From Candidatus Thorarchaeota archaeon (GTDB lineage: Archaea; Asgardarchaeota; Thorarchaeia; Thorarchaeales; Thorarchaeaceae): a DNA stretch of 64,000 nucleotides. Positions within the stretch are counted from its first letter, which is position 1. Every line of letters begins with the position of its first letter. The position numbers and the translations under genes were made by a program. Below the pieces are notes generated by a model. The model was not told the DNA's origin, searched no databases, and worked only from the letters and a program-made list of their open reading frames with translations. The DNA lies in contig JAIZWL010000001.1 of the NCBI GenBank assembly GCA_021498125.1, positions 1,489,123 to 1,553,122 on the forward strand, read 5' to 3'. Of the stretch, positions 8,385 through 15,585 are shown one piece after another.

Positions 8385-9521
8385 CTATTTCAAGAAAAGT
8401 TGAAGTGATTCGAGAACATACTGAATCTCTTCATCGGTGAGTTTGGGGAACATCGGCAATGATATGATCCTCTCATAAAATGCCTCTGTCTGTGGCAAGA
8501 ATTCGTCCTTATAGCCCGACGACCTATAATATGGATGCCAATAAATGGGAATATAGTGAACTTGGCAGAATATTCCTCTGTTTTTCAAGAAATTAAATAA
8601 TTCTAATCGCATTTTTGCATTTTCCACTTTGATCACATAGAGATGATATGCATGAAACTCGTAATTTCTCTCTTGAATAATCTCGACCTTGTCGCTGTAT
8701 TTTTCGAAAAAGTCATTGTATGTTCCTGCTATCTCTCGTCTCTTTTTGATGAATTGATCAATTCGTGATAGTTGCGACAGACCGAGGGCGGCCTGAATGT
8801 CAGTCAGCCGATAATTATAGCCGAGCTGATGCATCTCTTGATACCATGGTTCAGTATGTTGTGTTTGGAACTTTCTCTGATCCTTTGTGATTCCATGAGA
8901 TCTAAGACTTCGGAGAAGTTCATTCATCTCTTTGTCATTGGTAGTGATGACACCCCCTTCGCCTGTTGTGATATGTTTCACTGGATGTAGACTGAAGGCG
9001 GTAAGGTCTGAATAACGATTGTCCCCTATTTTCGAATCTCTATATTTTGCACCTATCGCATGACTTGCATCCTCAATGACAAATAGATCATTCTCATGAG
9101 CGATTTTAGAAATCTCGGTGCGTTCGACTGGCAATCCCATATAATGCACGGGAATGATACCTACGGTTCGCTCTGTAATATGTTGGGGAATCTGTTCGGG
9201 GTCAAGTAGACCGCGTTCAGTTATATCTGAAAATACAGGGGATCCTGAGTTATAGAGAACGCAATTTGATGTTGCCGCGAACGACATGGGTGTGGTTATC
9301 ACTTCAGTATTAGGGGCGACTCCCAGAGCTTTTGCAGCAAGATGAAGCGCTGCTGTTCCACTTGTGACCGCAATAGCATATTTCGCGCCGACATATTTGG
9401 CAAACTCTTTTTCAAAGGTGTCGATAAAAGGGCCAGTCGTCAGGAAGTCCGAATCCAAGACTTCCATAACTCGTTGTTTGTCCTCCTCGGAGATCCATTG
9501 TTTTCCATATGGAATTCTCAT
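8385..9521 (-). CDS. pseC: PLP-dependent 4-aminotransferase, PseC type
   Basis: A DegT/DnrJ/EryC1 aminotransferase of 378 residues, the usual length. It starts IPYGKQWISEEDKQRVME with DFLTTGPF, a signature of PseC, and has SGTAALHL for cofactor phosphate, EDASHAIGAKY, and the PLP lysine in SLHPVKHITTGEGG near residue 183. It should aminate the 4-keto sugar produced by PseB, with glutamate as probable donor. It lies 12 bases downstream of pseB on the same strand. Confidence 0.9.
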   Translation of the reverse strand: MRIPYGKQWISEEDKQRVMEVLDSDFLTTGPFIDTFEKEFAKYVGAKYAIAVTSGTAALHLAAKALGVAPNTEVITTPMSFAATSNCVLYNSGSPVFSDITERGLLDPEQIPQHITERTVGIIPVHYMGLPVERTEISKIAHENDLFVIEDASHAIGAKYRDSKIGDNRYSDLTAFSLHPVKHITTGEGGVITTNDKEMNELLRSLRSHGITKDQRKFQTQHTEPWYQEMHQLGYNYRLTDIQAALGLSQLSRIDQFIKKRREIAGTYNDFFEKYSDKVEIIQERNYEFHAYHLYVIKVENAKMRLELFNFLKNRGIFCQVHYIPIYWHPYYRSSGYKDEFLPQTEAFYERIISLPMFPKLTDEEIQYVLESLQLFLK

Positions 9522-9533
9522 TCTCCCACTTCC

Positions 9534-10571
9534 TTAGAGTAGGTTTAATTTTTCTAAATACTTTTTAAGATCTTCTTTTGAAAGCACGTGATCCTTTGAT
9601 GAGTATTCTTTTAGTTCCCCATTTGCCATGTGTTGGCCCTTTTGCATATAGATGGGTTGTTCAATTTCGTCTTGATATTTTCTTATGAGTGATGTAATCG
9701 CAAAAATATCTTTATATTTATATGTTAAAGGCATCTCATATTCATTGATGAGAAGCTCGTGAATCTTTTCACCGGGGCGTATCCCTATAATATCAATGGG
9801 ATTATCTGCATGAAGCAAGTCCTTTAGTACATCAATCAAGTCAATGATGCGTGTTGACGGAATGAATGGTACAATGACCTCGCCGCCTACACTATAGGCA
9901 AGTGCTTTCATGATCAAATCAACAGCCTGATCTGCTGATATGATAAACCGTGTCATGTCCGGATGGGTTAGCGGGATCGGTTCTCCTCTCTCGATTTTTT
10001 CCTTGAAAATTGGAATGATCGAGCCGGTGCTGGCAAGTACATTTCCATAACGTACACAGCTTAAGAGCGTCCTTGATTTTCCTTTACTATAATTGGTTTC
10101 TGTAAAGATGCGTTCTCCAAGAAGTTTGCATGCACCATACGAGTTCAATGGGGCGCATGCTTTGTCTGTAGAGATAAACAGGGCATGGCGCACATTATTG
10201 GCAACAGCGGCATTTGCCACATTCAAGGTTCCAATAATATTGGTCTTGATCGATTCGGCCACATTGTATTCAATCATGTCGATTCTTTTCAATGCGGCTG
10301 CATGAATTATTATGTCCACACCTTTTGTTGCGCGTTCCAACCGTGGATAGTCCCGCACATCGCCTATCAGATTTCGAATGTATGGGTTTTCACCAAATTC
10401 GACATTAAAATGAAAATGTTTGACTTCATCTCTACTGAAGACTCTGATGGACTGAGGGGAGTACCTTAGAAATCTTTTCACGAGGCTCTTCCCAAGGAAA
10501 CCAGTGCCCCCTGTAATCAGGATTACCCTATCATGCACGAGTTCAGCAATTTTTTTATCAAAATCAATCAA
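9534..10571 (-). CDS. pseB: UDP-GlcNAc 4,6-dehydratase, PseB type
   Basis: A short-chain dehydrogenase-fold enzyme that starts the pathway by dehydrating UDP-N-acetylglucosamine, with 5-epimerisation in the pseudaminic branch. The 345-residue protein has ILITGGTGFLGKSLVKRF for NAD(P), HAAALKRIDMIEYN, and STDKACAPLNSYGACKL, where Asp-Lys and the downstream Tyr form the PseB/FlaA1-type active site. RYGNVLASTGSIIPIF and THPDMTRFI follow as in the family. It is translated just before pseC, and the two form a compact unit downstream of the cytidylyltransferase gene. Confidence 0.9.
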   Translation of the reverse strand: MIDFDKKIAELVHDRVILITGGTGFLGKSLVKRFLRYSPQSIRVFSRDEVKHFHFNVEFGENPYIRNLIGDVRDYPRLERATKGVDIIIHAAALKRIDMIEYNVAESIKTNIIGTLNVANAAVANNVRHALFISTDKACAPLNSYGACKLLGERIFTETNYSKGKSRTLLSCVRYGNVLASTGSIIPIFKEKIERGEPIPLTHPDMTRFIISADQAVDLIMKALAYSVGGEVIVPFIPSTRIIDLIDVLKDLLHADNPIDIIGIRPGEKIHELLINEYEMPLTYKYKDIFAITSLIRKYQDEIEQPIYMQKGQHMANGELKEYSSKDHVLSKEDLKKYLEKLNLL

Positions 10572-10637
10572 AAGGTACTCACTCTCTGGTTATGTACTAT
10601 TCCACCAAACACAACAATGGCCGTAATTTGAACTTTG

Positions 10638-11411
10638 CTATGTCATTCTTGTGTCTACTTCTTTGAAATGCTTCTGTTTGACACCACTGTTGATTGTAGC
10701 AATTTCTGGATGGGCGTCTAAAAACTCTATTATTTTGCGATGATCCGCATTAATTAGGTCTTCTTTGAAATGATCATAGATGGCTAAAATTAGTCTGTAA
10801 TCAGTTTCAGTGTCAACGCATAGTCGATATCTTGGTCTGCAATCCGGAGGCTCCGGGAAGAGATACTCTGTGGTGAAATTCTCTTGATGCGTGTACAAAT
10901 ATGGCATCACATGTTCTCGTTCATATTTTTCGGTGGCCTCTGAAGCTGCTATTGCCAAGGACTCAAACTTAGCCACTTCGACATCAAATCCCCTCGGATA
11001 TGCACACTCCTTATTTTCTCCTATGGAAATAGTGAGATAATCCACGTCTCTTTCGAGAAATGATACAACCGCGTAATCGATGAGTTTCGGAGAGATGACC
11101 GGGCAGTCGCCAGTGACTCGCACAACAACATCCGCCTGCTGAGATTTTGCGGCCTCGAAGAATCTTGAGAGAACATCATCTTCTGACCCGCGAAATACCG
11201 CAAAACCAAGATCCCTCACATATTCTGCTAATGGGTCGTCTGACGGATTGGTGGATGTGGCTAAGATGACTTTATTGACTAGGTGAGCTTGACTCGCCCG
11301 TTTTAAGACGAGTTCAACGATCGACCAACTACCTATTTTTTTGAGAGATTTTTTTGGGAGGCGGGATGAGTTCATCCGTGCTTGGACAATGCACACAATA
11401 TTTTGAGTCAT
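10638..11411 (-). CDS. spsF: SpsF-type cytidylyltransferase
   Basis: A nucleotidyltransferase of about 257 residues with VCIVQARMNSSRLPKKSLK, the pyrophosphorylase signature, then FRGSEDDVLSRF and VRVTGDCPVISP with the metal-binding Asp. It belongs to the SpsF group that supplies CMP-nonulosonate in place of a classical PseF or NeuA, judging from neighbours rather than residues alone. It precedes pseB and pseC on the same strand and faces pseI across a 127-bp promoter region, so the two units are probably expressed together. Confidence 0.8.
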   Translation of the reverse strand: MTQNIVCIVQARMNSSRLPKKSLKKIGSWSIVELVLKRASQAHLVNKVILATSTNPSDDPLAEYVRDLGFAVFRGSEDDVLSRFFEAAKSQQADVVVRVTGDCPVISPKLIDYAVVSFLERDVDYLTISIGENKECAYPRGFDVEVAKFESLAIAASEATEKYEREHVMPYLYTHQENFTTEYLFPEPPDCRPRYRLCVDTETDYRLILAIYDHFKEDLINADHRKIIEFLDAHPEIATINSGVKQKHFKEVDTRMT

Positions 11412-11538
11412 TGTTTTTCAATAAATTTTGTATTTGCAAACGTTAATGAGTTTGTCTATCGAATAAATTGGCTTCATGCTATTCTGTTTCTCCAAGAATC
11501 TATATATGATGTTTATAGTTGGATTAGTTGGTGACTAA

Positions 11539-12588
11539 ATGAAGACTATACTGATTGATAATATTGCAGTTGGCGATAACCAACCCGTCTTCATTGTTGC
11601 TGAGATCTCTGCCAATCATTTACAAGATTATGATCTTGCTGTGAAGCTCATTGATGCCGCTGCAAAATCGGGAGCTAATGCAATCAAGTTGCAGACCTAT
11701 ACGCCCGATACTATCACACTCGATTCCGACAACGATTATTTCAAAATAAAACAGGGGACCATATGGGACGGGCGCACTCTCTATGATCTCTATAGCGAAG
11801 CATATACGCCTTGGGAATGGCAGCCAAAACTGAAGAAATATGCAGAGGAGCAGGGGCTTGTATGTTTTTCGTCACCTTTTGATTCTACTGCCGTAGATTT
11901 CCTAGAAAAAATAAATATCCCGGCCTATAAGATCGCTTCTTTTGAAATCACTGATATTCCTCTGATCGAGTATGTTGCTTCTAAAGGTAAACCTGTTATT
12001 ATCTCGACGGGGATTGCTACGACTGAAGATATTGAAGCGGCAGTCCAAGCATGTAGACGACAACACAACAACGACATAATTATTTTAAAATGCACCTCTG
12101 CCTATCCCACCCCACTACAGGAAGTAAATCTGCGAACTATGCCGGACATGAGGAGCCGCTATGATTGTCTTGTGGGCCTATCCGATCATACTAAAGGGGT
12201 TTCCGTTCCTATTGCATCAGTGGCACTTGGGGCATGTATGATTGAGAAGCATATAATCTTGGATCGAGATATGGGAGGGCCCGATGCAGCATTCTCATTG
12301 GAGCCTGATGAATTCAAATCCATGGTTACAAGTGTACGTGAGGTCGAGGAGGCTCTGGGTGTAGTTGATTATTCTTTGACCAGTAAGAAGAAGAAGAGCC
12401 GAGAGTTTGCGCGTTCGCTATTTATAGTGAAGGATATTGCTGCTGGTGAAAAATTAACTCCTGACAATGTTCGTTCGATTCGGCCCGGATACGGTCTTCC
12501 CCCAAAATTTCTGAAGGATGTGCTTGGGCGAACAGCGAAAAAAGAAATTAAACGAGGCACGCCTCTCACATGGGATCTGCTGGAATAG
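11539..12588 (+). CDS. pseI: Pseudaminic acid synthase, PseI/NeuB family with SAF domain
   Basis: It condenses the six-carbon amino sugar with phosphoenolpyruvate to give the nine-carbon sugar. The 349-residue protein has the NeuB barrel: FIVAEISANHLQDYDLA, IKLQTYTPDTITL, CFSSPFDSTAVDFLE, KIASFEITDIPLI, ILKCTSAYPTP and GLSDHTKG, with IEKHIILDRDMGGPDAAFS providing metal ligands. A C-terminal SAF (antifreeze-like) domain covers roughly residues 285-349 and ends RGTPLTWDLL. GGTGAC precedes the start. The YPTPLQEVNLRTM wording is closer to PseI than to sialic acid synthases. Confidence 0.9.
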   Translation: MKTILIDNIAVGDNQPVFIVAEISANHLQDYDLAVKLIDAAAKSGANAIKLQTYTPDTITLDSDNDYFKIKQGTIWDGRTLYDLYSEAYTPWEWQPKLKKYAEEQGLVCFSSPFDSTAVDFLEKINIPAYKIASFEITDIPLIEYVASKGKPVIISTGIATTEDIEAAVQACRRQHNNDIIILKCTSAYPTPLQEVNLRTMPDMRSRYDCLVGLSDHTKGVSVPIASVALGACMIEKHIILDRDMGGPDAAFSLEPDEFKSMVTSVREVEEALGVVDYSLTSKKKKSREFARSLFIVKDIAAGEKLTPDNVRSIRPGYGLPPKFLKDVLGRTAKKEIKRGTPLTWDLLE

Positions 12589-14973: not shown

Positions 14974-15531
14974 CTAGGAGCCTTCGACGACGAGCCTATA
15001 ATAGTAGGTCTTACCAGCGGTCCGGCTATCGCGCTCGATTCTGACGACTTGGCCGGGTTTGGCTCCGAGCACACGAGCAGCGGGATCACTTCTAAGAATC
15101 CGTGGGAGTTGTGTCTTGTCTATCCCGTAGTGATTGAGGACTATCTGAATCTCATCTTTAGTGGCAATCCTATGCTTGGGGACCAGTTCGTGATCGAAGA
15201 GGTCAAAAGACGAATAGTTACCCTGGATCAATTCGACATGGCTCTCTCGTGCCTGTTTCTTCGCAGCGGGCGTGAATCTGCTGCCTCCGATGAGCATACC
15301 CTCTGGAGCTTGAACTTCCTCCATATTCCGGGCAATGTCTTTTACTAAGGCCACTCCGACAACACGTGGCTCTTTGAAGATCCACACAACGGATTTTGTG
15401 ACGACATCATCTTTGACTCTCTCAGGGAATAGCACCCACCGTTCCTCATACTCGAACAGTTCGTCGGCCTTATAACCCCGGAGTCTCAAGAGCTGCCTAG
15501 TCTTGATAACTATGCTTGGTAGATCCACCAT
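14974..15531 (-). CDS. rpoH: RNA polymerase subunit RpoH with eukaryote-like N-terminal jaw domain (full-length RPB5)
   Basis: Residues about 112-185 are the universal RpoH/RPB5 C-terminal domain, with HELVPKHRIATKDEI, QLPRILRSDPAARVLGAK and GQVVRIERDSRTAGKTYYYR. Ordinary archaeal RpoH is only that domain, near 80 residues. Here about 110 residues precede it and run parallel to eukaryotic RPB5: KTRQLLRLRGY near the start, then IFKEPRVVGVALVKDIARNM, GMLIGGSRFTPAAKKQAR and a VELIQ strand leading into the shared domain. In RPB5 this part forms the lower jaw contacting downstream DNA. The gene stands alone rather than upstream of rpoB. Homology of the N-terminal part rests on my reading of the motifs. 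Confidence 0.9.
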   Translation of the reverse strand: MVDLPSIVIKTRQLLRLRGYKADELFEYEERWVLFPERVKDDVVTKSVVWIFKEPRVVGVALVKDIARNMEEVQAPEGMLIGGSRFTPAAKKQARESHVELIQGNYSSFDLFDHELVPKHRIATKDEIQIVLNHYGIDKTQLPRILRSDPAARVLGAKPGQVVRIERDSRTAGKTYYYRLVVEGS

Positions 15532-15556
15532 GTCAAAACACCTGTACAGCGCGAAT

Positions 15557-15585
15557 ATGTTCGCTCTTTAGTGAACATATAAAGA
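15557..15585 (-). promoter_or_regulatory. rpoH promoter with overlapping palindromic operator
   Basis: On the minus strand a TATA element, CTTTATATG, lies at about 15577-15585. Directly downstream, at 15557-15578, is an inverted repeat with arms ATGTTCGC and GTGAACAT (one mismatch) around TCTTTA. The palindrome covers the expected transcription start, 25-46 bases before the ATG, a position typical for repressor sites in archaea. The regulator is unknown. Confidence 0.6.

Follow-up and report, generated by a model that had tools for sequence, protein, structure and literature searches.

Is the jaw domain of RPB5 older than the eukaryotes themselves? The relevant passages of PMC2675907, PMC6690254 and PMC3906176 describe this jaw as eukaryote-specific and absent from archaeal RpoH, and those of PMC2675907 and PMC3906176 describe archaeal Rpo5 as an assembly domain only. 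The question is raised by a gene in a 64,000-nucleotide stretch of DNA from a Candidatus Thorarchaeota archaeon (GCA_021498125.1, contig JAIZWL010000001.1; the whole stretch is here called the window), which the original prediction took for a eukaryote-like, full-length RPB5. While the described Rpo5/RpoH proteins of Pyrococcus, Thermococcus and Sulfolobus are jawless, the window Rpo5 carries a jaw-like domain: this protein, the genome's sole detected Rpo5/RpoH, is likely a two-domain, full-length subunit of the RPB5 type, whose 106 jaw-like residues share common descent with eukaryotic RPB5.

The window rpo5 gene and its two domains

The gene (rpo5, or rpoH; RPB5-type) is a 185-aa open reading frame that occupies exactly the predicted interval, 14974..15531, and runs on the minus strand, from an ATG at 15531 to a stop codon at 14974-14976. 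Its C-terminal part (residues 107-185; 14977..15213, minus strand) is the archaeal Rpo5 core, or assembly domain: the Pfam model of the Rpb5 C-terminal domain (PF01191) hits residues 110-181 (2.6e-29, 101.2 bits against a cut-off of 23.5), NCBIfam RpoH (NF007129) covers residues 107-183 (6e-30), and structure alignments give 53–58% identity with the Rpo5 of Thermococcales. Since these two matches begin at residues 110 and 107, 106 residues (15214..15531, minus strand) stand in front of the archaeal core, close to the 110 or so that had been proposed. The protein has the C-terminal assembly domain of archaeal Rpo5, as expected of an RPB5, and with 185 aa and a jaw it does not conform to the classical short archaeal form of about 80 residues with the assembly domain only; eukaryotic RPB5 (RPABC1, of Pol I, II and III) is longer, at 205–215 aa. 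The window gene is the sole PF01191 match in the 3.1-Mb source genome, which is 98% complete, the same search being positive in four archaeal control genomes. By eye, a TATA-box-like TTTATATG (15576..15583, minus strand) starts 52 nt before the ATG, which suggests that rpo5 may have its own promoter, and an AGGTG resembling a ribosome-binding site lies at 15539..15543 (minus strand). Elsewhere in the window (8385-12588) there appears, also by eye, a cluster for sugar-nucleotide and sialic/pseudaminic-acid-type synthesis (aminotransferase, epimerase, NeuB-like).

For the N-terminal domain, for which a restriction-endonuclease-like fold is predicted, the Pfam models point to the nucleases. Mrr_cat, a restriction-endonuclease family, matches residues 56-105 above its cut-off (1.6e-5, 25.4 bits against 21) over about half of the model, a sequence relation of the Mrr type, and NA-iREase1, an inactive restriction-endonuclease family, gives a second match below its own cut-off (22.2 bits against 27). 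PF03871 (RNA_pol_Rpb5_N), the eukaryotic jaw model, finds no match in the protein at an E-value of 10, and the protein is not filed under PF03871 as this model is now drawn. Indeed, PF03871 exceeds its curated cut-off in only 1 of 227 genomes of the Asgard phylum; of five weak matches there, four lie in 277–282-aa frames of family f20 that are unlike Rpo5, and the remaining one, in G008, belongs to a jawed Rpo5.

Other comparisons lead to RPB5. When the PDB was searched with the N-terminal domain, RPB5 proteins were the only relatives under 0.01, and in profile-profile comparisons Asgard jaws matched eukaryotic jaws at 96% (based on 118 eukaryotic proteins minus 18 to which the cut pattern could not be applied), with reversed controls at 0.11–0.15% and a fourth, in which the stand-alone proteins described below were reversed, at 1.4%. 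Bathyarchaeota jaws matched the eukaryotic ones at 73% over 41 columns. The predicted model superposes on eukaryotic RPB5 over both domains together, in the RPB5 arrangement, the structure-based alignment showing about 31% identity; as AlphaFold2 already knows RPB5, this model is not fully independent evidence. An unrelated fold, which would have spoken against the original prediction, was thus not what emerged, and the proposed likeness of the N-terminal domain to the jaw is borne out by profiles, PDB search and superposition alike.

The motifs on which that likeness had been based are all in place, and they are conserved in a 78-row alignment of relatives. RGY (residues 18-20; 15472..15480) has an Arg that is invariant in archaeal alignments, and three aligned eukaryotes also read RGY; EPRVVGV (residues 54-60; 15352..15372) contains Gly59, invariant in the 78 rows; and TPAAKK (residues 87-92) contains T87-P88-A89-A90 (15262..15273; all three on the minus strand), which aligns with T117-P118-S119-A120 of yeast RPB5, a DNA-contacting loop in the account of PMC6690254. 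With R18 and G59 invariant and T87 nearly so, these motifs go beyond chance. The yeast counterpart of the second, EPSVGV, is one residue off, and owing to this offset we dropped the EP motif as an equivalent of the yeast Pro86 contact. The window protein has the TPSA-type loop; by alignment count, all 138 archaeal jaws examined have T or S at the equivalent of T87, and only 55 of them have Pro at that of Pro118; the yeast P118T mutant grows normally, according to the same account (PMC6690254). Because the T-P-x-A falls within a stretch that also matches Mrr-type nucleases, it is not by itself proof of a jaw.

Distribution and gene neighbourhood in archaea

The jaw is neither the trait of a single archaeon nor one of Asgard archaea only. 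Some form of Rpo5 was found in 206 of 227 Asgard-phylum genomes with a full-length query, and the jaw profile matched 126 of the 227 at 1e-6, a count that includes two (G052, G115) with only weak matches in putative Rpo5. Among the 45 most complete and clean genomes 24 matched, as did 19 of the 29 families, a count without f20 and f21, where the one match each was weak or contaminant-like, respectively. Thorarchaeota, Heimdallarchaeota, Hodarchaeota, Jordarchaeia/Freyarchaeota, Borrarchaeum, Sifarchaeum and Wukongarchaeum all have jawed Rpo5. The same protein is present in Bathyarchaeota (Bathyarchaeia), which provide 60 of the best 80 of 115 matching loci, one of them broken by a contig start. 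At 1e-10 the jaw profile matched 58 of 398 evenly drawn genomes of the phylum that contains Bathyarchaeota; in the corresponding class it matched 89 of 151 genomes, in three of which (G302, G652, G668) the match is not in an Rpo5 frame. PF01191 detected Rpo5 in 137 of these 151 genomes, long (at least 179 aa) in 86 and short (at most 136 aa) in 51 by hand count from the table, one of them (G237) having a long gene and a broken second long copy; in none of the 137 did the long and short forms occur together. A protein-cluster search gave 674 matches, with lengths of 176–237 aa among the 120 matches listed.

Several variations on this architecture were seen. Some Heimdallarchaeota relatives (families f7/f8; L040-L044, L153-L157; P0121-P0151) carry three consecutive jaw-like modules on Rpo5, a form not seen in the other archaeal families looked at, and the third of these jaws matches eukaryotic jaws at only 33% (profile-profile). 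Lysine-rich, repeat-like C-terminal tails (KKTTPAKK), similar to those of linker histones, are present on some jawed Rpo5 of Heimdallarchaeota (L038:4949-5872, P0128). Many genomes of the window's own family have two full-length rpo5 in tandem, 57–68% identical to the window protein (loci L012, L015, L016, L018-L020, L023, L025, L026 and L029 are among them). Families f24 and f25 (L067, L068) combine a divergent jaw with some 25 extra residues inserted into the C-terminal domain, and in family f23 (L064:1481-2119) a long N-terminal part that scores only 3.3 bits with the jaw profile precedes the Rpo5 C-terminal domain. A predicted RPB5 of Medicago truncatula (P0156) has two tandem jaws and a precomputed Mrr_cat match; it may be a gene-model fusion.

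Short and long genes lie in different surroundings. A frame of at least 1000 aa starts no more than 204 nt downstream of 26 of 30 short rpo5; in the other four cases, two genes are followed by a frame that the end of the contig truncates, one is itself at a contig end, and in L039, from a doubtful bin, the distance is 1484 nt. Two of these rpoB-sized frames were scanned with Pfam, both being rpoB, and the rest were judged by size. None of the 79 long genes with 3.5 kb of sequence after them (of 141 distinct long genes) has an rpoB-sized frame within 1.5 kb downstream. The window rpo5, unlike the examined short genes, is not directly upstream of rpoB: no RNA polymerase domain was detected in eight scanned neighbours (one HD, one MoCF, one ribbon-helix-helix and five without a match), and the rpoB of the source genome is ~1.5 Mb away, close to where this contig begins. 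Since no testable long gene is followed by an rpoB-sized frame, the jawed gene has either left the rpoB operon or was never in it. This, together with the mutual exclusion of the two forms, suggests that the short rpo5 was replaced by an unlinked long one, via old paralogy with loss or via transfer.

Origin of the jaw

Bathyarchaeota genomes also encode stand-alone Mrr-like proteins of 111–127 aa (L161-L167), which are not fused to Rpo5 and which, like Mrr_cat domains, have the fold class and a T-P-x-A-type stretch in common with the window jaw; they may be close kin of the jaw that lie outside RNA polymerase. A joint archaeal jaw profile matches them at 97.5% and eukaryotic jaws at 95.6%, whereas eukaryotic jaws and stand-alone proteins match each other at 1.2% (profile-profile); archaeal jaws are thus intermediate in sequence space. 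Some longer Bathyarchaeota proteins (L158-L160, L169) have a jaw-like N-terminal part and several cysteines in their C-terminal part.

When 43 long forms were placed in an unrooted tree, the four eukaryotes (one plant, three fungi) were set apart from the rest by a branch of length 1.56 (100/99), no archaeal row falls among them, and Bathyarchaeota group together (91/91). This tree shows no recent gift from the sampled eukaryotes, and it gives the fusion neither a date nor a root; with four eukaryotes and no inferred root, it would be compatible with an older transfer. In a tree of the C-terminal domain (77 columns) the long forms are ungrouped, with at least six changes between long and short; forcing them into one clade was 20 log units worse and was not rejected (AU p 0.13), and we discarded this tree as a test of a single origin, 77 columns holding too little signal. 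There, eukaryotes stand beside families f15-f17 (97/65), which they also adjoin in the long-form tree, a placement that we do not trust given the long branch and the four eukaryotes. Four divergent rows (L041, L043, L067, L068) were dropped from both trees.

As the N-terminal domain matches the RPB5 jaw in sequence and in predicted fold, the jaw likely arose in archaea before eukaryotes. This part of the original prediction gains from the archaeal spread and from the lack of archaeal rows inside the eukaryotes, the data being compatible with various dates and numbers of fusions. In the likely course of events, an archaeal rpo5 outside the rpoB operon would have acquired a dead Mrr-like domain and taken the place of the short, rpoB-linked gene in many Asgard and Bathyarchaeota lineages, with eukaryotic RPB5 descending from this jawed form. 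A further-reaching scenario, which we somewhat favour, has archaea invent the jaw no later than the divergence of Asgard archaea and Bathyarchaeota; the jawed gene would have displaced the short one repeatedly, the jaw would have tripled in one Heimdallarchaeota lineage, and Pol I, II and III would have inherited the single-jaw version.

Archaea and eukaryotes could instead have fused an Mrr-like domain to Rpo5 independently, so that their jaws are alike and yet separate acquisitions. The stand-alone proteins indeed match archaeal jaws slightly better than eukaryotic jaws do, the window protein scores above the Mrr_cat cut-off, and the long forms stay apart in the C-domain tree. We nevertheless consider such parallel fusions unlikely: eukaryotic jaws match the Asgard jaw profile and do not match the stand-alone proteins, the order of the domains is identical, both superpose together in the predicted model, and a single clade of long forms was not rejected. 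Slightly less probable is that the archaeal jaw is not ancestral and was acquired by transfer, either out of an early eukaryote or from one archaeal phylum to another. The patchy spread (19 of 29 Asgard-phylum families, 86 of 137 Rpo5-bearing class genomes), the absence of a root in the long-form tree and the unlinked position of the long rpo5, consistent with a mobile gene having replaced the short one, speak for it. Against a eukaryotic source, though leaving room for transfer between archaeal phyla, stand the 100/99 branch, with no archaeal row among the four eukaryotes, and the compared eukaryotic jaws themselves, which at 123–149 residues contain an insertion not seen in archaeal jaws (~106 residues, without roughly 20–40 of theirs). 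A recent transfer from a eukaryote, the outcome most damaging to the original prediction, is not supported, with jaws in 19 Asgard families and in Bathyarchaeota.

Members of the restriction-endonuclease superfamily are expected to carry an acidic-x-Lys pair. In the window protein the strand before VVGV is VVWIF, without this pair, and by eye no D-(E/Q)xK active site is evident; these features, and the far higher scores of RPB5 chains in the structure comparison, make it very unlikely that Rpo5 is joined here to a nuclease or another enzyme instead of a structural jaw. The yeast RPB5 jaw is presented, in the relevant passages of PMC551604 and PMC1185551, as a restriction-enzyme-like fold without catalytic residues. 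An assembly or binning artefact can account for individual records, such as the copy in a Sigynarchaeota bin (G160, L136) that is very like those of Jordarchaeia and likely a contaminant; as an overall explanation its probability is negligible, and we rejected it on the number of independent genomes, the same architecture being present in the 98% complete source genome, in chromosome records and in many unrelated protein clusters. Both G160 and G013 look like cases of bin contamination or mixing.

Possible role and meaning of an archaeal jaw

By analogy with other archaeal polymerases, the C-terminal domain would dock on Rpo1, and the N-terminal domain, a restriction-nuclease fold in which no active site is evident, would serve as the lower jaw of the DNA-entry channel. 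Its T87-P88-A89-A90 loop would touch the incoming duplex in front of the bubble, some 15–20 nt ahead, and the jaw may steady downstream DNA in initiation and elongation. That the window protein is the sole Rpo5 of its genome, and that long and short forms exclude each other in 137 genomes, hints indirectly that it may be a stable subunit of the polymerase. The pertinent part of PMC2675907 reports that the lower side of the Sulfolobus DNA-entry channel is accessible, that Rpo13 docks there and that the RPB5 jaw partly fills it in eukaryotes. Rpo13 of Sulfolobales, whose site near downstream DNA is partly that of the eukaryotic jaw (PMC2675907), is an unrelated helix-turn-helix subunit and an analogue of the jaw at most.

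Among the matches listed from the open-licence PMC literature, an archaeal RPB5 jaw is described in no title or abstract opening; an earlier mention may exist elsewhere, as in subscription papers, preprints or supplements. The available text of PMC13257274 (2026, on Rpo6 and Rpo8) models Rpo5 and has the word "jaw" only in a reference title, and PMC10307638 counts RPB8 among the informational signature proteins, with RPB5 and rpoH absent from its main text. With jawed Rpo5 encoded by so many Asgard and Bathyarchaeota genomes, a structural module of Pol I, II and III now extends to archaea, whose jaws also bridge, in sequence, the gap between Mrr-like domains and their eukaryotic counterpart. 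Both the origin of the jaw and its role at downstream DNA become testable in organisms with a single polymerase, among which jawed, jawless and triple-jawed forms offer natural comparisons.
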